Assembly (NCBI RefSeq): GCF_001647715.1
Contig: NZ_CP015600.1
Coordinates: 310,001 to 374,000, forward strand
Reading direction: 5' to 3'
Origin: Pseudomonas antarctica
GTDB lineage: Bacteria > Pseudomonadota > Gammaproteobacteria > Pseudomonadales > Pseudomonadaceae
Length of the DNA stretch: 64,000 nt
The number at the start of each line of letters is the position of its first letter. Position 1 is the first letter of the stretch. The notes beneath the pieces are model-generated. The model was not told where the DNA came from, ran no database searches, and saw nothing but the letters and a program-made list of their open reading frames with translations. This document shows, in pieces, positions 22,017-64,000 of the stretch. Made by a program: the position numbers and the translations under genes.

Positions 22017-22679
22017 TTAAAAGAGGGATGATTGTAGCGGATGAAAATTAATTTCATAAGCTTTTGAAACTTGCTCTAAAAAAATAGTTTGGCCACCGTA
22101 GCTTGGGTGTCTAAACTTATTGATTTCTATTTTGCTTGTTAACTTTGAGGCGGAAACTGAAGCATCATTTCCTATGGCAATTATTTTTCGTGGCTTAATA
22201 GTGCTGATAAGTTCGCAAAGGATCGCTTCACCGATCTTTCTTTCTGTGGAATTATGCGTTCTGTTGGTAAACACATTCCCTGCAATAAATGGATGTAGCG
22301 GGAAGACGTTCCATAAAAATATATTGTCTTCAATTTTTTCTAAAGCGCTCCAAATAACTGCAGCTGTTCTTTCTGAAACAGGGGCTCCATTTGTAACTCG
22401 TGGGATTTCAATTCCCCATCGATGAGCATGACGATCTATATTTACATCATCCGTCAGCGCTAAACCAGTGCGGCGCCCACCGCGATATCCCAAATCACGG
22501 CCAATCCAAATAGAGTCGATATCTGCTTTGGACGCGGCTTCGACAAGTTTTAATAGAGAATTTTTTCTAATTTTTGAAGCGTTCGCATTGTCAAATACGG
22601 GGCATGTATCACTATATGGATTAAAAGTATTTTCTATGTGCAGCGAGCTAAGCGCATTGACGAAATTTTTAGGAGTCAT
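22017..22679 (-). CDS. Uracil-DNA-glycosylase-superfamily protein (insert 1, gene 4)
   Basis: A 220-residue protein. Family motifs can be placed: WIGRDLGYRGGRRTGL (58-73, equivalent to the water-activating GxxPG loop, with RDLGY in place of the usual proline), ALTDD, FLWNVFPLHPF (121-131), a strand-turn IIAIGNDAS (166-174) and the C-terminal DNA-intercalation-type loop FRHPSYGG (189-196). These point to the UDG fold; the active-site variation makes the base specificity uncertain. It starts one base after the MazG-like gene stop (TGATATG), so the two are probably co-translated. AT-rich, unlike neighbours. Role in base repair, modified-base removal or sensing is inferred. Confidence 0.7.
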   Translation of the reverse strand: MTPKNFVNALSSLHIENTFNPYSDTCPVFDNANASKIRKNSLLKLVEAASKADIDSIWIGRDLGYRGGRRTGLALTDDVNIDRHAHRWGIEIPRVTNGAPVSERTAAVIWSALEKIEDNIFLWNVFPLHPFIAGNVFTNRTHNSTERKIGEAILCELISTIKPRKIIAIGNDASVSASKLTSKIEINKFRHPSYGGQTIFLEQVSKAYEINFHPLQSSLF

Positions 22680-22680
22680 A

Positions 22681-23799
22681 TCATTTTTCCAATGGCCGAA
22701 ACTCTAGAGTTCTATTGATTCGATTTCCCACAATTATGCCACATCTCTTCTCTTTAAGCTGCCGGAATACTTTGTACCCATCAAGAATAGCGCGTTCCCA
22801 AAGGGCCAGAGGGCACTCTTCAACTTCGTATCCAGAGACAAACTGCTTTACTGTTTTTAGTAAATCGAATGATAACTTATCTTGATGTTCAAAGAAATTT
22901 GAGTTTTTTGCCACTGAGAAAATCCAGGCGCTTAATCCTTCTTCAATAACAATAGCTCTACCGCTATCTTGTTCCTCATCTGTTTTTGGGTTGCTTTTTC
23001 TCTTGTGTTTGATCAGAGCCCTAAATGTGGGTGACCAATGAAGGATTGCTGCATGTGCCATATGGAAAACATCATGAAATCTATATCCGTCGGAATCCTT
23101 TATGTTGTCAGTTAGTGGGTCTCCTATGAAAACACCTTGCCATTGTAAGTATGATTTTCCATTCGGTCTTTCAGTAATTTTTATTTCAAACTGTTCTGGT
23201 AGTCTTTCTTCTTCGGAAAAGCTACCATCAAATGTATTTAGTTTTGATATATCTGGCTGAAGAAATCTGCTTGTTGATTTTTCAATATTGTGGTTTATTA
23301 CGTCTGCGAAACTTATGTTGGCGGCTTTGAGTGTAAAAAGATAATTTAAAAAGAATTTCTCTAGTTTTTCCTTAGTATCTTCGTTTGCCTGAAGAGAATT
23401 CAGAAGATCAGCCGCAGACTGCCCAAGATTTGTTAAGGCTATTGTGAATTCTTGATCTTCAGTGATTGGAATATGAGCTAATGGACTACTTAGTATGTCT
23501 GTGACCAATAATATACTATGCTGTTTTTTGCAAAATGGTGATTTCACTAAATCGTTTATGTTGTATTTTAGCCTATCAACTAATCTGGTAAAATACCAAA
23601 ATACGTCTCCAAGTTCCTCAGTTATGGATATTCTGTAATTATATGCCATGCCATCGCGGTTAAGTTTTTTAGCAGTGGTCACCACGCTTCCGACTTCACC
23701 ATACAATCCAAAAGTTATAGATTGAAGATCAGTTAAACGATCTGTGTCTCTTATGCTGTTTGAGTAATGGTCTAGTGTAACGTTAGTCGTGGTGATCAT
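22681..23799 (-). CDS. Two-domain MazG-like nucleotide pyrophosphohydrolase (insert 1, gene 3)
   Basis: A 372-residue protein. The N-terminal part carries the MazG-type metal site: FGLYGEVGSV with Glu35, and ITEELGDVFWYFTRL with Glu61, Glu62 and Asp65. Such domains hydrolyse non-canonical or regulatory NTPs to NMP and pyrophosphate. A second domain (about 205-350) has DGYRFHDVFHMAHAAILHWSP and RAIVIEEGLSAWIF, His/Glu-rich motifs that suggest a further metal site; I do not recognise it as a named family. AAGGA precedes the ATG. It follows the Nmad2-like gene by 16 bases. Confidence 0.72.
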   Translation of the reverse strand: MITTTNVTLDHYSNSIRDTDRLTDLQSITFGLYGEVGSVVTTAKKLNRDGMAYNYRISITEELGDVFWYFTRLVDRLKYNINDLVKSPFCKKQHSILLVTDILSSPLAHIPITEDQEFTIALTNLGQSAADLLNSLQANEDTKEKLEKFFLNYLFTLKAANISFADVINHNIEKSTSRFLQPDISKLNTFDGSFSEEERLPEQFEIKITERPNGKSYLQWQGVFIGDPLTDNIKDSDGYRFHDVFHMAHAAILHWSPTFRALIKHKRKSNPKTDEEQDSGRAIVIEEGLSAWIFSVAKNSNFFEHQDKLSFDLLKTVKQFVSGYEVEECPLALWERAILDGYKVFRQLKEKRCGIIVGNRINRTLEFRPLEK

Positions 23800-23815
23800 T
23801 TTCTATCCTTAGATT

Positions 23816-24397
23816 TTAGTTTTTCCAATCAGAGGGAGCGCCAAAACATCCTCGTTCTTGACACATTAACCACGCTTTTGCTTCTGACTTGAATTCGTCA
23901 GGGAAGTTGCACTTGTGGCCTGGTCCCTTTTTAATTAATTCCATTAATGTCGGGGGGATTGCTGGTGACTTTGACCCCCAATATGAGAAATTATTACTTA
24001 TCAGGACTCTATTGCTACTTGTATCTGTGGCGATGTTTTCTTCGCTTGTTGATCCATCATAATTGGTATGGTGTGAGTCCTCTTGGATCCAGCTTCCATT
24101 TTCGTCAGTGTGATAAATGTTGTCGCCATATGCTTTCTTTGTGCTTCCGACGTAATTTACTTTTTTCACTGCAAATCGAACGTCATTCCAGTAGTCATCA
24201 AAAGTTAATATTTCATTTACTTCCATGAAAAACACAATTTCGTTCGACCTGGGTGCCGCAGCTGTACCTACTATAATATCACCAAGTTCGGCGGCATTGC
24301 GGATGAGTGGTTTACAAGTTGCCAATGTACAAAATCCATGAAATGGATTCGGTGCAAACCCAAAGTCTCGAGCGACCACATAAGAAAATATTTTCAT
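23816..24397 (-). CDS. Nmad2-like protein (nucleotide-modification-associated domain) (insert 1, gene 2)
   Basis: A 193-residue protein whose start MKIFSYVVARDFGFAPNPF followed by GFCTLATCKPLIRNAAELGD and EIVFFMEVNEILTFDDYW matches my memory of the Nmad2 family, described from comparative genomics of base-modification gene clusters in phages and bacteria. Biochemical function is unknown. A conserved central stretch (YVGSTKKAYGDNIYH, SNNFSYWG) is also visible. It begins three bases after the upstream stop codon. Family call moderate; a search with the full sequence would settle it. Confidence 0.6.
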   Translation of the reverse strand: MKIFSYVVARDFGFAPNPFHGFCTLATCKPLIRNAAELGDIIVGTAAAPRSNEIVFFMEVNEILTFDDYWNDVRFAVKKVNYVGSTKKAYGDNIYHTDENGSWIQEDSHHTNYDGSTSEENIATDTSSNRVLISNNFSYWGSKSPAIPPTLMELIKKGPGHKCNFPDEFKSEAKAWLMCQERGCFGAPSDWKN

Positions 24398-24400
24398 TTT

Positions 24401-24853
24401 TTAACCACAGGTATGTTTTTTGATTTTTGTTTTAGGTGGGGTGCTATAGTCGGGATTTAGCCATATATCAGACTTTCCGGAAAAAATTTCTTTGCTCCTT
24501 GCATCGTATGGACTAATGCTATCGCCATAAGCCCCAACCGATACACAAAGATCTTGTGGTTCTGCGTCATCTATCCAAATACCAATAATTCTTTTACCAT
24601 AAGTGTTTGCTATTTCTACAGATTTACTAATGCAGGCATGATCTTTAGTTTCTTTAGAAAGGTATACCACTAACAAATCAATGTGTTGTATTGCTATAGA
24701 CAACCTGTCGTTAATAGAGCAGGAGGAAATATCGCTAATTGGCAAGTCAAGTTCAGTTGCACTTAAGTTTTCAGAGTTTAAATCGGATATTATCTGGTGA
24801 TGCTTGGAATGTTTTCGAGCAACATAAACTATTAAAGCGGCGTTATATTTCAT
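24401..24853 (-). CDS. Small TIR-like or nucleoside-deoxyribosyltransferase-like protein (insert 1, gene 1)
   Basis: A 150-residue protein and the first gene of the operon (AAGGGA before the ATG). It has alternating strands and helices in a Rossmann-like order. The central segment IDLLVVYLSKETKDHACISK, followed by SVEIANTYGKRIIGIWID, resembles TIR/DUF1863-type and deoxyribosyltransferase folds; Glu80 is the candidate catalytic glutamate, placed before a helix as in those families. Such folds cleave N-glycosidic bonds of NAD or nucleosides. A conserved-looking VGAYGDSISPYD follows. It could also be a non-catalytic nucleotide sensor. Fold call moderate, activity inferred. Confidence 0.5.
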   Translation of the reverse strand: MKYNAALIVYVARKHSKHHQIISDLNSENLSATELDLPISDISSCSINDRLSIAIQHIDLLVVYLSKETKDHACISKSVEIANTYGKRIIGIWIDDAEPQDLCVSVGAYGDSISPYDARSKEIFSGKSDIWLNPDYSTPPKTKIKKHTCG

Positions 24854-55527: not shown

Positions 55528-55740
55528 CTTCAGTCGCACGCCCAAATTAGCCCCACTCGCCAGCCCATCATCCCGATGGCCGACGGGCAAATCCGCGAAA
55601 AATTCGGGGTGACCGTCGTGGGGTTGAAGCGCACCAATCAAGACTTCCAGCATGCCACCCCTAGCACCCTGATCCGGCCTGGTGATCTGCTAATCGTGTC
55701 CGGGCCGACCCATCTGATCCAGAAATTTGCGGGAGGCTAG
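55528..55740 (+). pseudogene. Remnant of a TrkA-C-domain transporter C-terminus
   Basis: A frame with MADGQIREKFGVTVVGLKRT and IRPGDLLIVSGPTHLIQKFAGG, the C-terminal ion-binding TrkA-C domain of K+ or Na+/H+ transport proteins, ending in a stop at 55740. Nothing upstream encodes the rest, because the preceding sequence is terminator plus 60 unrelated bases. It is a decayed 3' end. Confidence 0.75.
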
Positions 55741-56063
55741 ACATAGCCAGTGAGCAACAATTGGCCGATTCTGCTGAAAAAGTCGGATTCTCAGTGGGCC
55801 TGGGTTCAGGCTGTTGGCGCTGATTGAATACTGCCCCCCAACACTCTCAATTTCGTACAGCCACTGGACGCAACGCAGGGCCTGCTCGGCGAGCTGGCTC
55901 TTATTAGTAGCGCGCAATTCGAAGAATTTGCGCCGGGCCTGGGCCAGGCAGCCAAGCTCGGTCGCGCCGAGTTCGAAGCTGGCCTTGTAACCGCTAAAAT
56001 CGTTGCAGACCAACTTACCTTTCCAGCCTTGCGGGAAGTTATGAGAATGAAATCGGGCTCATA
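55690..56063 (-). pseudogene. Fragment of IS66-type transposase
   Basis: The minus-strand frame reads NFPQGWKGKLVCNDFSGYK and ASFELGATELGCLAQARRKF, typical of the IS66 TnpC catalytic region, then loses identity (QYSISANSLNPGPLRIRLF). No start, ends or partner genes (tnpA/tnpB) are visible. A scar of a past insertion, overlapping the end of the TrkA-C remnant. Confidence 0.8.
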
Positions 56064-56229: not shown

Positions 56230-56236
56230 TCTTATA

Positions 56237-56260
56237 TGGTGCCGGCACCAAGAGTCGAAT
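56237..56260 (-). other. tRNA 3'-end fragment, candidate attachment site of the island
   Basis: On the minus strand it reads ATTCGACTCTTGGTGCCGGC plus ACCA: a T-arm/acceptor half and CCA end that fits tRNA-Thr as I recall it. The rest of the tRNA is absent. Such a fragment next to its own terminator is what is left on the distal side after a tyrosine recombinase integrates in a tRNA 3' end. The intact gene should be at the other end of the element, right of 64,000. It also marks the start of AT-rich sequence. Confidence 0.6.
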
Positions 56261-56546: not shown

Positions 56547-56572
56547 GCTGTAACGCCAAATGGCGTTACAGC
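56547..56572 (-). terminator. Terminator of the MazG-GHKL-PRTase operon
   Basis: GCTGTAACGCC/GGCGTTACAGC forms a perfect 11-bp stem with a four-base loop, followed on the minus strand by ATTTTC. It begins eleven bases past the last stop codon. Confidence 0.75.
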
Positions 56573-56582
56573 GAACATGATT

Positions 56583-58784
56583 TCAATTTGAATGTTTTAT
56601 ATGTGCCATAACTAGAAAGCCGAGCAGTGGAGAAGCTACATCTTTCATAATGGAAATGGCGGTTGATATTAAAACCTTTGTGTCAGGCTCGCTAAGTTTT
56701 AAACTCCCGACAGCTAACGCTGCCGCAAATTCCAATGACGCGTCACCGAATTTGTGCGAATGCCGCTGAAAAACCTTGAGCAAAAACTCTTTCATTAGTT
56801 TGCTCAGATCGGGGCTTGCCGAGTAATCCAATTCATGAGGATGAGCAGCCCTTAAAAAACATGCCTGCAAAATATTGTCGTTAAAGCGCAAGAAGCACTC
56901 GGGTGAGAGCACAACAGATTCGTACCCAGAAGCTTTCAATTGGATAGCATGATCTTTATGCTCGCGCGCTTTCTGCAGTACCGATGTCATCGTAAGATAT
57001 ACTGCGCTTTGACTTACTTTGTCGTACGCTTCAGCAATTTCGCTTCCCGCTTCGAAGAACAAGAAACCATGAGAGAGATCCAGTTTTTCTCCATCTGGCT
57101 TTGGCAAAAAACTGTGGTAGTTGTTTTCTATAAGAACAGAAACCATATCCAGAGAGTTTCGAGCTATATCTATATCAAGGCCAGAGATACTTGGATCCGC
57201 CTGCTCAGCCTCGGCAGACAGTTTGCCGAGACGTCGCCATGCTGTTTCAACACCATCGTATCCGATAGGGAGCAACAGCCAATTTGAAAATCCATATTTG
57301 CGAGACGTTGGATTTCGAGTGAGAAAATCCGTTAGCTTCCCCCAAGATGCCTCAGTTTGTGGAAGCCCAACCGCTGCAATAAAATGTCTTGGGATGGTAG
57401 CATCTACAAAATTCCGAAGATCCCTACTAACGTCTCTTAGCCCCCCTCCATCACCTACGACAGCCGAAACTACCAAAACTCCTGTTACTGTCGCGTCTGT
57501 TAAAGAAGAAAGTTCATCCTGAGATACCAAATGAATTTGTATGCTTGAGTCTAATCTGGATTTCACCTTCTGCAGTGCTAACTCAGCAAGTAGGCGAGAA
57601 CTTTCCCCTCCACAGTAGACTATACAGTTTATAGCCATACTGACAGACCAATTAATCTCGATATCGAGCCAATGGCTAAATTCGGCATCGGTCAAAAGTC
57701 GAGATGCATCTAGCTCTATCAGTCTAGATTTACCAGCAGTCATTGAGTTTAATGGTAGTACGCCATCAAGGCCGAATTTTTTTAAAATTTCACCAAGATG
57801 ATCGGGATTATGCTTTAGGGCAACCGTAACGGATTTTGGTGGCTTTGCCTTGGACGTAAAATTCTCTCCAATCAACTCAATGAGAGTACCCAGTTCGTCT
57901 GAAACTAAATTGCTATAACTGCGGCTCATCTTGCTTAAAGGTATTAGAACACCACCTTCACGCCCCTGATCACTTATATCTATTAATGTGAGGATTTTTT
58001 CAGGCTTAAAATTTTGTTTGACAAGTTTTCTTGCCATCGAGCCGGAAGTTGAAGCTGAAATCACACAGAAATATTCTACGTCGGGCTCGCTTATTAACGC
58101 TAGATTTTCATAAGAGTGAAAGCTTTGAATTTCTGCGCTGCCGCCCACTAATTGCAATGCGGTTTTGACTACAGAATAAATACCCATTGTATCAATGAGA
58201 ATCAGTCTGGAGGAAATCAGTTTGTCAAAGTATTTCGCAGCTAATGCGTATCCCAATACATACAGCTGGGCCTCATTACTTGCAAGTTCACGGGACTGGA
58301 TGAATAGCTTGTTAATATTTCCGGAGGGATGCTTGAAGGAGTGGCCGGAGGGTGCAAGATGGACTACGTTATTCTCTTCAATTAAAGAAAGCAGTCCAGG
58401 AAGAAAAAGTTTTCTACCGTCTATTTTGAATTCGATGGTCGGACCAGGATATAAGCTATGCTCAACGAAATTTGTACCGTCCCATGCAAAGAAATTATAA
58501 ACTTTTACAAAGTCTGTGCCGTACCGTTGTCCGCGTTTTATTAGTATTTCTCGTTGATTTTGCTCCGGGGAAAGGGCGTTTTTCGCCACTCGTAATTGCG
58601 CAGAATTACCTACAAAATATACACAGTCAGGCAATACCTCTAAACGCTTTAACGACTCCTCGATATCCTTGTAAAAGCTATCAACCTCCAATATGCAAGA
58701 GTTGTAGCAAATTACCAATACGCTTAGGCGAATAGAGTTGGTAGAGCACTCTTCATCGCAAATCCAAGAATGGTACCTCTTCAT
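56583..58784 (-). CDS. Dual phosphoribosyltransferase-like protein (insert 2, gene 3)
   Basis: A 733-residue soluble protein beginning MKRYHSWICDEECSTNSIRL, whose ATG overlaps the GHKL stop (ATGA). Two domains resemble type I phosphoribosyltransferases. About 140-290 has an orotate-PRTase-like entry (HLAPSGHSFKHPSGNINKLF) and a loop YFCVISASTSGSMARKLV. About 383-475 has CIVYCGGESSRLLAELALQ and the PRPP-loop-like VLVVSAVVGDGGGLRDVSRD. In both, the usual acidic pair before the loop is replaced (SA), so catalysis is doubtful and ligand sensing more likely. The remaining ~260 residues are helical and unassigned. I know of no named family with this layout. Confidence 0.7.
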   Translation of the reverse strand: MKRYHSWICDEECSTNSIRLSVLVICYNSCILEVDSFYKDIEESLKRLEVLPDCVYFVGNSAQLRVAKNALSPEQNQREILIKRGQRYGTDFVKVYNFFAWDGTNFVEHSLYPGPTIEFKIDGRKLFLPGLLSLIEENNVVHLAPSGHSFKHPSGNINKLFIQSRELASNEAQLYVLGYALAAKYFDKLISSRLILIDTMGIYSVVKTALQLVGGSAEIQSFHSYENLALISEPDVEYFCVISASTSGSMARKLVKQNFKPEKILTLIDISDQGREGGVLIPLSKMSRSYSNLVSDELGTLIELIGENFTSKAKPPKSVTVALKHNPDHLGEILKKFGLDGVLPLNSMTAGKSRLIELDASRLLTDAEFSHWLDIEINWSVSMAINCIVYCGGESSRLLAELALQKVKSRLDSSIQIHLVSQDELSSLTDATVTGVLVVSAVVGDGGGLRDVSRDLRNFVDATIPRHFIAAVGLPQTEASWGKLTDFLTRNPTSRKYGFSNWLLLPIGYDGVETAWRRLGKLSAEAEQADPSISGLDIDIARNSLDMVSVLIENNYHSFLPKPDGEKLDLSHGFLFFEAGSEIAEAYDKVSQSAVYLTMTSVLQKAREHKDHAIQLKASGYESVVLSPECFLRFNDNILQACFLRAAHPHELDYSASPDLSKLMKEFLLKVFQRHSHKFGDASLEFAAALAVGSLKLSEPDTKVLISTAISIMKDVASPLLGFLVMAHIKHSN

Positions 58785-59929
58785 GATGCGTCCCTGATCG
58801 GCACAATAAAAGAAACCACCGCGCCGTGAACAGGTGCTAGTGGCTCGTGATTCCAATCTTTGAAGTCAAAAAGATCATCTTTTACGTCGAATGGCTCAAA
58901 CTGATTAAAGATTGACATGCGGCCTGACCTAATGCGCATTAAACCGCCAATTTTTTTTAAAGCTGTAATAACCGAAGGTAATCCTTCCCCGGCAAAATGT
59001 CCGGGTTTGGAAGTGATATTATGCGTCAGGCATTTTATAAGTTGCGCGCGCTCTTCTTCCAGACTCATCTCAGTTACCAATTTCCCTGTATATCTACCAA
59101 CTAATCCAGGTCCCGAGTCAAAAAAGCTTATTTCAATTGCATTTAGCTTTCCCTCCACCCCCACAGTGTCAGAGATTTCACGTTTCCAATATTCGTTTAG
59201 ATGATAATTTCCTTTGAAGTCTTCCGAAAACAGTTCCTCATTAAGGCTGCTCAAACTAAATATCAGCCCCTCCACGTGCGCTGGATAAAGTTTGCCCGTG
59301 TGATCTGATCGCGCATGTTCTTGCGTGTTTGAAATTAATTCGCTGGCAAATAACCCAAGAGCGCGAGTGAATTCTATATCAATTTTTGATGCTTGTTTTT
59401 TAGCGATAACAGCAAGCATTTTTTTCATTTGTAAATACATATCGCGCGGTTCTTTTACTGCCTTTTCAGTTCTAGCAAAAAATAGCGGGCGAAGAAATTC
59501 TACTTTCGAAGCAGCAACACAAATTAAATCAATGGTTCGCCCCGTAATTAAACTATTATACTGCTCGGCGTCAGTTGCATTCATTTTGTCAACAGCCGCA
59601 GTTAAAACTTCTCGTCGGTCTATAATTTTATCGCCAACCCTTACGCCTTTTGCAAGTCGCACCGCAGCAATGCCAGGCGCATAGCTCATTAGGTCGTTGA
59701 TAGAGTTCTCTACATTAGATTGTTCGTGGAGAACTAAAAGGCCTTGGCTGTTTCTTCTAGCCAAAGTTACTAGCATTTGTAATCTTGAGGCGTCATGCAT
59801 GGCGCCGTGTCGTGCTTTTGTCTCTGATGCTGATAGCTTAAACTCTGACTGAGGCTCATTAAATATTTGCCACAATGCAGCCTCTATGGATTTAATGCTT
59901 CTTATGTTGTTCAAGTATATGGATTTCAC
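58781..59929 (-). CDS. GHKL-type (histidine-kinase-like) ATPase (insert 2, gene 2)
   Basis: A 382-residue protein. The start is GTG at 59929, directly preceded by AAGGAGG at optimal spacing; the longer frame to 60010 overlaps the upstream gene and has no such site. ATPase motifs: N-box ELISNTQEHARSD (197-209), G1 FFDSGPGLVG (269-278), G2 GHFAGEGLPSVI (310-321). It has no H-box or membrane segment, so it is not an ordinary sensor kinase; the N-terminal ~190 residues are unassigned. It overlaps the next gene by four bases. It may act as an ATP-dependent switch for the neighbouring proteins. Confidence 0.78.
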   Translation of the reverse strand: MKSIYLNNIRSIKSIEAALWQIFNEPQSEFKLSASETKARHGAMHDASRLQMLVTLARRNSQGLLVLHEQSNVENSINDLMSYAPGIAAVRLAKGVRVGDKIIDRREVLTAAVDKMNATDAEQYNSLITGRTIDLICVAASKVEFLRPLFFARTEKAVKEPRDMYLQMKKMLAVIAKKQASKIDIEFTRALGLFASELISNTQEHARSDHTGKLYPAHVEGLIFSLSSLNEELFSEDFKGNYHLNEYWKREISDTVGVEGKLNAIEISFFDSGPGLVGRYTGKLVTEMSLEEERAQLIKCLTHNITSKPGHFAGEGLPSVITALKKIGGLMRIRSGRMSIFNQFEPFDVKDDLFDFKDWNHEPLAPVHGAVVSFIVPIRDAS

Positions 59930-59955
59930 AGTTCCTCCTTGACAATCTGCATTGG

Positions 59956-60384
59956 TTACTTTTTGGAGTGGTTTTCCAATAACGCTTTTATTTTTGGTTC
60001 GGGCTTCCAATAGTTTGGACCCTTCAAAAATTTTCCATTCTCGTCATAAATTGGCTGTCCATCTGCGCCCAGTTTGCTTTCATTGCTATCCATAATGATG
60101 TCTAGCACTTCCTCGAGAGGGATTCCGTACTTAGTTGCCTCAGAACGGCAATAGACAATGACATCTCCCAATAAATCTGCGATTGCAACTTTAATCTCAA
60201 TATCGGCTTCGTTGTTATGTATCTGCTCAACAATAATATCTAGTTCCTCCACTTCTTCTGCAAGAGTTTTTTTGAACTTCAAAAGCCGGGATGCAGTGTC
60301 TTCGAGTAAAACTGGCTGCTCATTGATAGGCAATTTGTACATAGTGTTCATTGCTTTGATTCGGTCTTTGAAATCTCTATTCAT
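59956..60384 (-). CDS. MazG-like nucleotide pyrophosphohydrolase (insert 2, gene 1)
   Basis: A 142-residue all-helical protein of the MazG/phosphoribosyl-ATP pyrophosphohydrolase-like group. Metal-site residues lie in LAEEVEELDIIV (Glu43, Glu44, Glu46, Glu47) and IADLLGDVIVYCRSEATKYG (Asp70, Asp74); the characteristic tail SNESKLGADGQPIYDENGKF and KGPNYWKPEP is present. It would hydrolyse an NTP to NMP and pyrophosphate. First gene of the operon; GAGAGA is a weak ribosome binding site, and 26 bases separate it from the GHKL gene. Confidence 0.82.
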   Translation of the reverse strand: MNRDFKDRIKAMNTMYKLPINEQPVLLEDTASRLLKFKKTLAEEVEELDIIVEQIHNNEADIEIKVAIADLLGDVIVYCRSEATKYGIPLEEVLDIIMDSNESKLGADGQPIYDENGKFLKGPNYWKPEPKIKALLENHSKK

Positions 60385-61017: not shown

Positions 61018-61314
61018 TTATGCATGTTGACCTTCATTCGGCATGTTGAACTGCCAAGGTTTCCCTAAGCGAAGAGTAAGCAGAAGAATGGTTAGCAGAT
61101 AGTAATAGCGCGTCGATTTCGCATGCTGGTTTATGTGATGATTTAGAAACCATACGAGATATTTTCTTTTCCATGTCCATGGATTATCTCGGTTCCAGCG
61201 TTCATAAATGGCTGCTTGAATAGTCTTGGCTTGGCGGATGTGACGTTCGCGTGTGGCATGTGCGCCGGTCAGTACTCCAGCCAGGAACAGCTCCATATCG
61301 AACGACGTGCTCAT
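61018..61314 (-). CDS. Small protein coupled to the integrase gene
   Basis: A 98-residue basic protein (LFLAGVLTGAHATRERHIRQ, AIYERWNRDNPWTWKRKYLVWFLNHHI) of a type I recall seeing beside similar integrase-like genes in Pseudomonas. No named domain. Its start overlaps the integrase stop by four bases; it may help recombination or control directionality. Confidence 0.65.
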   Translation of the reverse strand: MSTSFDMELFLAGVLTGAHATRERHIRQAKTIQAAIYERWNRDNPWTWKRKYLVWFLNHHINQHAKSTRYYYLLTILLLTLRLGKPWQFNMPNEGQHA

Positions 61315-62297
61315 ACTCGACCACCGATGTAGGCCGATACCACGTCAGTACGACCGTGCCCCAGCTCATAGCTGATTTGCACTCGGGCCTGCTGATCAAG
61401 GTGCCGGTCGAGCTGGTGGCAACTGCCTCCGTTGATGGGTGCGAGATGATTAGTGATTTGCTCATAGCGTTCGCACGCATAGGCCGCCCGCAATTCGTGG
61501 AAGCCTTTGAGGTTGTGCGTATGGAGGATGTCCCGTGCAGGGCGGACGATCTGCCGTTGAAAATCGAGGTAGCTTTCGTTCAGCGCAAGCAGGTTGCGGC
61601 TACCGTCAGGCGAGACTTGTTGGGCGAATGCCAGTACGTCGCGGATGTGATCATCTACTGTAATCCAACGAGATGCCGACGCGCCGGAGCGGCCCCCTTT
61701 GGTGCCGTCCTGGATGTTGATCTTGCTGTAGTGTTCGACCTCACGTTTTAGACGCGGCAGGTCGGCCAAAATGGCCTCGCGCAGGCGCATGCCGGTGGCT
61801 CGCGTCAACTGAGCGATGGCCGCGGCGCGTGGCATTTGGTGTGCGCAGAGCACGTCGACGATCCGCGTCACCTGTTCGCGGTCTTGGCCTTGTGGCAGCG
61901 AGCGACGAACACTGGTGCGCCGCATTTCCAACGCCTTGCTCGGACTCGTCACTTTCACATACTGATCACCGCGAAGCGCGGCCATGGTTCGGTTGACGCT
62001 GGACAATCGGTTTTGCGCGGTGGCGATGCCAATAGCGCCTTGTTCAACTTGGTGACGCAGATGCTCCGCGTAATCCAGCAAGGTCTGCCGATCAATCTGC
62101 CGCGCATCGTTAAGCCCCGGCCCATCTTCCGACCGACACCAGCGCACGAACGCCTGCCAGCGATCGCTGTGCGCTTTGACCGTGCCGTAATGGCCGCCGC
62201 CAAAAAGATCTTTGAGCGCTTGCGGCCCGGCATAGCTCAGTTGCCGGCCATAGCCAAAATTGCGTCCATCTCGCCTGCTTATCAGTGCCATGATCAA
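61311..62297 (-). CDS. Tyrosine recombinase (integrase-domain protein)
   Basis: A 328-residue protein. The catalytic set is visible: Arg in TRATGMRLREAI, HELRAAY (HxxR), and ELGHGRTDVVSAYIG with the second His and nucleophilic Tyr near the C-terminus. It carries an N-terminal SAM-like core-binding domain (WQAFVRWCRSED). Starts MIM/MAL at 62297 or 62291. The element's integrase or one from a nested element. Confidence 0.85.
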   Translation of the reverse strand: MIMALISRRDGRNFGYGRQLSYAGPQALKDLFGGGHYGTVKAHSDRWQAFVRWCRSEDGPGLNDARQIDRQTLLDYAEHLRHQVEQGAIGIATAQNRLSSVNRTMAALRGDQYVKVTSPSKALEMRRTSVRRSLPQGQDREQVTRIVDVLCAHQMPRAAAIAQLTRATGMRLREAILADLPRLKREVEHYSKINIQDGTKGGRSGASASRWITVDDHIRDVLAFAQQVSPDGSRNLLALNESYLDFQRQIVRPARDILHTHNLKGFHELRAAYACERYEQITNHLAPINGGSCHQLDRHLDQQARVQISYELGHGRTDVVSAYIGGRV

Positions 62298-62755: not shown

Positions 62756-63114
62756 AGGTTGGCGCAATGAAATGGCCAAGCGGATAGGTTGCTGCAGGGC
62801 AGCTAGGAAGGGGATGAGTTGCCGCAATGGGCACATTGGTAAAAGTAGGCATCCATCACATTGCTGTGACCGTGCGAGCCGCCGGACGCTAATCGCACTT
62901 GGGGTGAACCACCACGGTGTGGCGTAGCCTCAAAGGTTCGGGCTACCTGGGTTGCTGTCAACGACAGCTCATTGCCCGATCTTTTCTACGCCTGTGGATA
63001 ATTTGGGTCAAGGCTCGAATTTTTGGGAGTTTTGCGGCTGTGGATGAAATTATCCACCGGTGGAAATCTGTGGTTTTCCTCAGACAGTTGTGTGGGCTTT
63101 AGATTTTTAAGTGA

Positions 63115-63200: not shown

Positions 63201-64000
63201 TTACTCGGTTGCGCCACGTTTTGCTTTTAGGCGAGTAACGTTCGCTCCGGTCTGGTTCGCAAATTCGTGTGGAGTGACATGCTCCTGCCGGTTGGTCTCT
63301 AGGTACCGGCTCCACCAGTTCATGATCAGCCTGCGCTCCTCGATGAACTCTGCTTTGTGGATGTAAGCGGCGCGTACGTTGTTGCGCTCCTTGTGGCTCA
63401 TCTGCCGCTCAATGGCTGTCTCCGACCACAATCCTGACTCGATCAGTGCGCTGCAGGCCATCGAACGGAACCCATGCCCGCAGATATCGGTTTTGGTGTC
63501 GTATCCCATCGTTCGAAGCGCGTTGTTCACGGTATTTTCGGACATGGGCTTCCAGGGCTTGGCATCGCCTGCGAAGACCAATGCGAAGTTACCTGTGAGC
63601 GTATGGATTTGTTCGAGTAGAGCCACGGCTTGCGGCGATAAGGGTACAAGGTGGATGTCCCCGGCCATCTTCGTACCCCTTGTGGAAAAGGGTACTCCCT
63701 CCAGCGCTGGCCGAGTGTCTGGGATTTCCCAGGTGCCGCGCTTGAGGTCGAATTCGCTCCAGCGTGCGAAACGCAGCTCGCTGGAGCGTACAAACACATG
63801 CAGCGACAGCATCACCGTCAGACGGGTAAGTGCCCGGCCTTTATAGGTGTCGATCCGCTCCTGCAGTTCCGGCAGTCGCGATAAGGGTAGAGCGGGGCGA
63901 TGTACCACCCGCGGGGCTTTGATCGAGCCTTCGAGGTCGTAAGCAGGGTTTGTGGTGATAAGCCGGAGGCGTTTTGCCTCGCGCATGATGCTCTGCAGGT
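63201..64000 (-). CDS. P4-type tyrosine integrase (partial, 5' end beyond window)
   Basis: At least 266 residues are visible and the frame is open to base 64,000, so the N-terminal DUF4102-type domain lies outside. The catalytic core has Arg in HVFVRSSELRFARW, HGFRSMACSALIESG (HxxR-type), MSHKERNNVRAAYIHK with the nucleophilic Tyr. P4-type integrases insert islands into tRNA 3' ends and lie next to the tRNA, reading away from it; this orientation predicts the tRNA just right of the window. Confidence 0.88.
   Translation of the reverse strand, partial: LQSIMREAKRLRLITTNPAYDLEGSIKAPRVVHRPALPLSRLPELQERIDTYKGRALTRLTVMLSLHVFVRSSELRFARWSEFDLKRGTWEIPDTRPALEGVPFSTRGTKMAGDIHLVPLSPQAVALLEQIHTLTGNFALVFAGDAKPWKPMSENTVNNALRTMGYDTKTDICGHGFRSMACSALIESGLWSETAIERQMSHKERNNVRAAYIHKAEFIEERRLIMNWWSRYLETNRQEHVTPHEFANQTGANVTRLKAKRGATE

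Follow-up and report, generated by a model that had tools for sequence, protein, structure and literature searches.

A MazG-bearing variant of the defence candidate PDC-M65 on a tRNA-Thr island of Pseudomonas antarctica

In a 64,000-nucleotide stretch of Pseudomonas antarctica DNA (contig NZ_CP015600.1, positions 310,001 to 374,000; hereafter the window), three minus-strand genes form an operon encoding a MazG-like protein, a GHKL ATPase and a 733-residue protein with two phosphoribosyltransferase (PRTase) folds. The operon is a MazG-bearing variant of PDC-M65, a PADLOC label for a phage-defence candidate of untested function, and it is the cargo of a mobile island integrated at a tRNA-Thr gene. 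New beyond PDC-M65 are the third gene, MazG, in the window's clade and the PRTase make-up of the putative sensor. A role in defence as such is quite probable. To the full scheme, in which an island-borne PDC-M65 variant would combine a PRTase-fold receptor, a GHKL switch and a MazG add-on, we assign a probability of about 0.45.

The MazG-like gene (59956..60384, 142 aa) is the most upstream of the three. A gap of 26 bases separates its stop codon from the GTG start (59929) of the PDC-M65A-like GHKL gene (58781..59929, 382 aa), whose stop codon shares the letters ATGA with the start of the PDC-M65B-like gene for the dual PRTase-fold protein (56583..58784, 733 aa). The G+C content of the operon is about 40–43%, against about 60% in its surroundings. 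An earlier note, made from the letters of the window, had described this compact, AT-rich minus-strand layout, and its coordinates proved exact. GTG 59929 is the likely GHKL start, judging from the AAGGAGG in front of it (59934–59940) and from the resulting 382 aa, which lie in the range of the listed homologues (mostly about 380–390 aa). The open reading frame of 409 aa owes its extra residues to its extension up to an upstream TTG. The hairpin with which the note ended the operon stood as a structure: a perfect 11-bp stem-loop lies behind the large gene (56547..56572, minus strand, −20.7 kcal/mol; z −6.7, equalled by none of 200 shuffles). Its part as a terminator did not stand as well, the U tail being weak and the stem-loop absent from the list of a terminator scan; it may nevertheless act as one.

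Membership of PDC-M65 follows from the two downstream genes, which are adjacent and overlapping. The GHKL protein matches PDC-M65A with E 6.5e-29 (profile positions 11–394 of 398), and the large protein matches PDC-M65B with E 8.7e-52, its best stretch covering positions 397–749 of 763. The PADLOC accessions that flank PDC-M65 are PDC-M64C and PDC-M66A and a third PDC-M65 model was not seen, so, going by accession order, the candidate comprises two genes, from which the window differs by the MazG gene in front. The sole PADLOC match of the MazG-like protein is a weak one to PDC-S15 (E 0.022). Thus, the statement of the earlier note that no named system has this set fails for the GHKL–PRTase pair, which is PDC-M65, and holds for MazG, which lies outside the candidate. 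Neither the term PDC-M65 nor a paper naming the three-gene set turned up in the literature searched, which excluded supplements and the body text of subscription journals. The DefensePredictor paper (PMC13092281) gives MazG as a predicted defence domain not yet validated, has HATPase in the same figure legend and mentions PRTase; some overlap with the three-gene set is possible. Two further papers (PMC7824862, PMC5512222) treat both MazG and PRTase domains in the context of conflicts with phages, in passages that do not contain the set.

Conserved adjacency of the three genes, a check proposed with the original reading, was found across genera. At 18 loci on genome contigs that carry the large gene, the GHKL gene is present in 17, the exception (L027) starting at a contig end, and MazG lies on the same strand directly upstream of GHKL in 13. 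These 13 are not independent because some are near-copies (L014, L015 and L026; L017 and L029). In L016, L022, L024 and L025 the upstream DNA is available and MazG is absent. On a 26-row tree, which omits L027 and has some distant rows on long branches, the presence of MazG requires two changes, compared with a mean of 8.9 after shuffling (0 of 500 shuffles as low). All rows in which MazG accompanies the pair belong to one clade (14 of its 19 rows; support 100/100), and MazG is absent from the seven distant PDC-M65 rows, whose large proteins share roughly 23–27% blastp identity with that of the window (L061 left out). The pair consequently stands without MazG in 12 of the 26 rows, so MazG cannot be an obligatory component across the family. 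Among the 14 rows with all three genes, three of them with a partial large protein, pairwise identities correlate strongly (MazG with large protein, r 0.908; MazG with GHKL, 0.897; GHKL with large protein, 0.970); none of 2000 permutations reached any of these values, from which shared ancestry was not removed. With a mean pairwise identity of 71.6%, MazG is far more conserved than GHKL (49.2%) or the large protein (48.4%).

A protein search at E <= 0.001 gave 143 homologues of the large protein, with scoring confined to the best 7,996 candidates by shared words. PDC-M65B was matched in 7 of 248 genomes of the same family, and a profile of the window's own subfamily in 3 of 369 genomes of the class and 6 of 398 of a phylum sample (own genome included in each case). 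These low counts indicate that the three-gene set is sparse and mobile. In the same phylum sample PDC-M65B itself matched 21 of 398 genomes, 15 of them weakly and from one family (E 1e-6 to 8e-4). Such weak hits can be false because the profile weakly matches ordinary PyrE: three of the 15 were inspected, and proved to be PyrE by Pfam (L086), PyrE by a look at the sequence (L087) and a distant pair (L084). Relatives of the large protein were found neither by a pattern scan of viral contigs nor in phage records at E 1e-4, and the DNA of an Enterobacter copy had no match in E. coli genomes. The large-protein frame is interrupted in L028, L029, L035 and L092, as is the GHKL frame in L029, reflecting decayed genes or sequence errors.

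A structure model of the 733-aa protein (AlphaFold2; mean pLDDT, the predicted local distance difference test, 90.0; predicted template modelling score 0.61) contains two PRTase folds, in line with the two PRTase-like regions that had been read from the sequence and were to be checked in this way. Domain 1 (57885..58415, minus strand, residues about 124–300) has an orotate-PRTase-type hood, APSGHSFKHPSG..FIQ, and a loop, VISASTSG, of the type that binds phosphoribosyl pyrophosphate (PRPP). Domain 2 (57261..57803, minus strand, residues about 328–508) has the loop VVSAVVGDGGGL. An acidic pair in the PRPP loop is a feature of catalytic type I PRTases. Both domains of the window protein lack it, as the note had seen, and have Ser-Ala in its place. 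All 29 PDC-M65 rows that hold the domain-1 loop have Ser-Ala there, and the pair in domain 2 varies, being DD in L084, DP in L058, AG in L031 and L032, and SA in the window. The dual folds look non-catalytic. The distant pair at L084:61-3302, whose GHKL protein is recognised by neither Pfam nor PADLOC, retains Asp-Asp in the PRPP loop of its second PRTase and is possibly an ancestral, catalytic form.

The PRTase assignment is based on the structure model and on a match of the PDC-M65B profile to true PyrE (5e-6), the sequence link being located in the hood. The window protein has no Pfam match, and PF00156 was matched by none of 49 homologues. A profile comparison with PyrE, Upp, Hpt and a PyrR-like protein of the same genome gave nothing significant (hhalign to PyrE, E 0.11), and a search of solved structures with the large-protein profile returned no usable relative. 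The protein resembles PyrE in fold and, at the sequence level, in the hood motif, but differs in lacking the acidic pair, in having two PRTase domains and in being extended on both sides. Most conserved of the regions compared is a C-terminal helical core (56700..57017, minus strand, residues 590–695), which matches the window protein at a mean identity of 66% across the 15 near rows and 38% across the nine far ones; the corresponding values for the PRTase domains are 42–46% and 19–24%. No domain assignment for PDC-M65 was found in the papers searched, so the one given here is a new detail. PurR of Firmicutes provides a precedent in which a PRTase pocket has been retained to bind rather than to catalyse: its inactive PRTase domain binds PRPP or (p)ppGpp (PMC8789054); a like role for the window protein is our inference. 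As described there PurR is a DNA-binding repressor, whereas the window protein has tandem PRTase folds and a GHKL partner.

By its fold and by the residues of its N, G1 and G2 boxes, the 382-aa protein belongs to the GHKL ATPase superfamily. E197..N201, D271-x-G273-x-G275 and G314/G316 are invariant in 40 sequences, and a fold search agrees with the assignment at modest scores. No invariant or nearly invariant histidine precedes the N box in these 40 sequences, so the H-box of histidine kinases is not seen; both observations bear out the first reading of this protein. A search of solved structures with the GHKL profile gave no usable relative, and neither the GHKL nor the large protein of the window has a Pfam match at E <= 1, the DUF4263 nuclease of Shedu included. 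The Shedu protein VcSduA, with an N-terminal GHKL ATPase hypothesised to be a switch (PMC12137116), resembles the window in having such an ATPase as the proposed switch of a defence protein, but is a single protein with a nuclease domain; PRTase and MazG are absent from the passages available.

The 142-aa protein is a predicted MazG-like, all-alpha pyrophosphohydrolase of (deoxy)nucleoside triphosphates ((d)NTPs) with its metal and sugar residues intact. It matches Pfam MazG (PF03819) with E 1.5e-4, over the cut-off, and PDB entry 3nl9, an Exiguobacterium NTP pyrophosphohydrolase of the MazG/dimeric dUTPase superfamily (PMC2954211), with E 4.8e-7. E44/E47, D70/D74 and N101 are invariant in 27 sequences; D70, D74 and N101 align with the metal-site pair Asp95/Asp99 and the sugar-reading Asn126 of 3nl9 in an alignment that covers only the C-terminal half, and the role of E44/E47 is assigned by motif only. 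A search of 298 genomes of the family at E <= 1e-20 returned this MazG from three: its own, that of L057 (identical in record to L014), where the operon is complete, and that of L056, where the stretch taken lacks the pair. The lone gene of L056 (10017-10454, 70% identity) stands beside an open reading frame (ORF) that resembles a DNA methylase by eye, the pair not being nearby, and another (L059:8040-8435, 66% identity) lies on a conjugative Cupriavidus plasmid near N-6 DNA methylase and helicase genes. More distant relatives occur in 29 viral contigs (L093-L121, 40–63% identity) and in 108 of 50,697 phage records, all under 60% identity.

The operon lies in an island with an integrase, as the earlier note had it. 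Next to tRNA-Thr(TGT) (64697-64772, beyond the window) is the gene of a 440-aa tyrosine integrase (63201..64523, minus strand, running past the window end at 64000; PF00589 E 3.6e-15, NF007246 E 5.8e-31), followed by a second recombinase of Integrase_1 type (61311..62297, minus strand, 328 aa; PF12835 E 8.1e-7). A 15-bp direct repeat of the tRNA 3' end at 56236..56250 (partner at 64696-64710, beyond the window) is a candidate left attachment site; being largely its own reverse complement, it is weak evidence alone. Stronger evidence comes from four of the seven same-genus loci available (L052-L055): in three of them (L052, L053 and L055) the island flanks are joined into an empty site, with 66–71 bases of left flank at 80–86% identity and 154–164 bases on the tRNA side at 96%. 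In the stretch taken from L054 neither flank was found. Repeat and joined flanks together give an element of about 8.5 kb, in which the operon is accompanied by both recombinase genes and a 98-aa ORF, and the cargo side is AT-rich. The idea that the OprD-to-tRNA interval of the relatives is this same hot spot filled with different cargo did not hold up; since the island flanks are joined there, the other DNA lies to the left of the island. The island also holds an Rfam radC RNA motif (RF01754, 77 bits, 62849-62982, minus strand), and an IS66 transposase remnant (55690-56013, E 8.8e-10) lies just outside the left repeat.

Neighbourhoods of the pair in other genomes contain clear defence genes at 13 of the 19 loci with some neighbour examined, the neighbours having been picked by eye with no control and two of the 13 (L014 and L026) being near-copies; a location beside other defence genes had been put forward as a check. 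For this comparison 29 hand-picked neighbours and one beside a lone MazG were run against PADLOC and 10 against Pfam (nine in both), and two annotated plasmid regions holding the pair were also read. The genes are CapP-like (L013), an AbiJ N-terminal domain (L014), type I restriction-modification (R-M; L016), Tmn (L017), an N-terminal piece of GajA (L020), LmuA-like (L021), AbiH (L026), AbiEi (L028), LmuB (L031), GajA and GajB (L034), HsdR (L035), HsdM and HsdS (L058), and QatC and QatD (L061). No clear defence gene was seen at L018, L019, L022 (a methyltransferase-HNH gene), L024 (conjugation genes), L032 or L060.

In the scheme that we favour, the cassette would defend its host against phages or rival elements. 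Its orotate-PRTase-like pocket would allow the 733-residue protein to bind a ligand of nucleotide type without turnover, as PurR does, and GHKL, acting as a switch of the SpoIIAB/histidine-kinase type that binds ATP, would make assembly or release of the pair depend on the state of this ligand; receptor and switch roles alike are suggested by analogy. Because the pair lacks MazG in 12 of the 26 rows, we treat MazG as an add-on module and place the output in the pair, the best candidate being its conserved C-terminal helical part. MazG itself would hydrolyse a (d)NTP, most likely setting or destroying the pair's ligand, or reinforcing the response by draining dNTPs. In a more specific and tentative form, GHKL would read the occupancy of a dead double receptor of orotate-PRTase type while a phage-type dNTP pyrophosphohydrolase makes or removes its ligand, and the graded loss in domain 2 (DD, DP, AG, SA) would record the passage from enzyme to receptor.

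The alternatives overlap in part with this scheme, so that their odds need not sum to one. In the earlier note MazG is the effector of a system in which a metabolite is sensed by the large protein; spelled out, GHKL would relay the signal and MazG would be released to drain the NTP or dNTP pool. The invariant active-site residues and the co-travel of MazG with the pair fit this, and draining dNTPs is a proven defence strategy, as in Clover, where CloA, a dGTPase, acts with CloB and the nucleotide pool is both read and attacked (PMC12265719); Clover resembles the window only in how it works, its HD-domain dGTPase and nucleotidyltransferase being unrelated to the window's families, and nucleotide attack here would be by analogy. 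Without MazG in those 12 rows, however, the pair cannot have it as the wider family's only effector, and MazG is probably not lethal alone, since it stands by itself in L056 and L059 and has relatives in phage genomes. The claim is thus not supported as made, and we consider this reading rather unlikely. A less likely possibility is that MazG acts as a metabolic weapon or housecleaner by cleaving a particular dNTP, modified or non-canonical, which invading phages produce or depend on, with the pair a separate switch sharing only the operon. Its very high conservation (72% mean pairwise identity) would fit a substrate constraint and its phage relatives (the 108 records and 29 viral loci above) would fit the setting, but its identities correlate with those of its partners and it lies directly upstream of GHKL in all 13 loci that have it.

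The pair might instead guard restriction, watching type I R-M or another host defence and acting once this is blocked. Type I R-M genes immediately precede it in L058 and come within 1 kb before it in L016 (one ORF between), and a type I restriction gene is upstream in L035 and, by a look at the sequence only, in L091. Yet no R-M gene is among the ORFs inspected in the window's island, and other copies lie near Gabija, Qat, AbiE, AbiH or AbiJ genes, which makes a guard very improbable. We also doubt that the operon serves no defence at all and is a stress or nucleotide-salvage regulator of mobile elements, for instance a stabiliser resembling a toxin-antitoxin system: maintenance genes are common on islands, but defence genes recur around the pair and PADLOC lists it as a phage-defence candidate.

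Elsewhere in the window, a second AT-rich block of four minus-strand genes (22017-24853, about 37–38% G+C) encodes a 150-aa protein (24401-24853) that matches a ThsB-like TIR (E 4.3e-12) and a 372-aa protein with a weak match to a type I specificity model (E 0.014).

If the favoured scheme is true, bacterial immunity would count PRTase-fold receptors among its sensors, and a testable link would tie nucleotide pools to a GHKL-gated response. PDC-M65 also gains a domain assignment and, for the cloning of members of the window's clade, a third gene.

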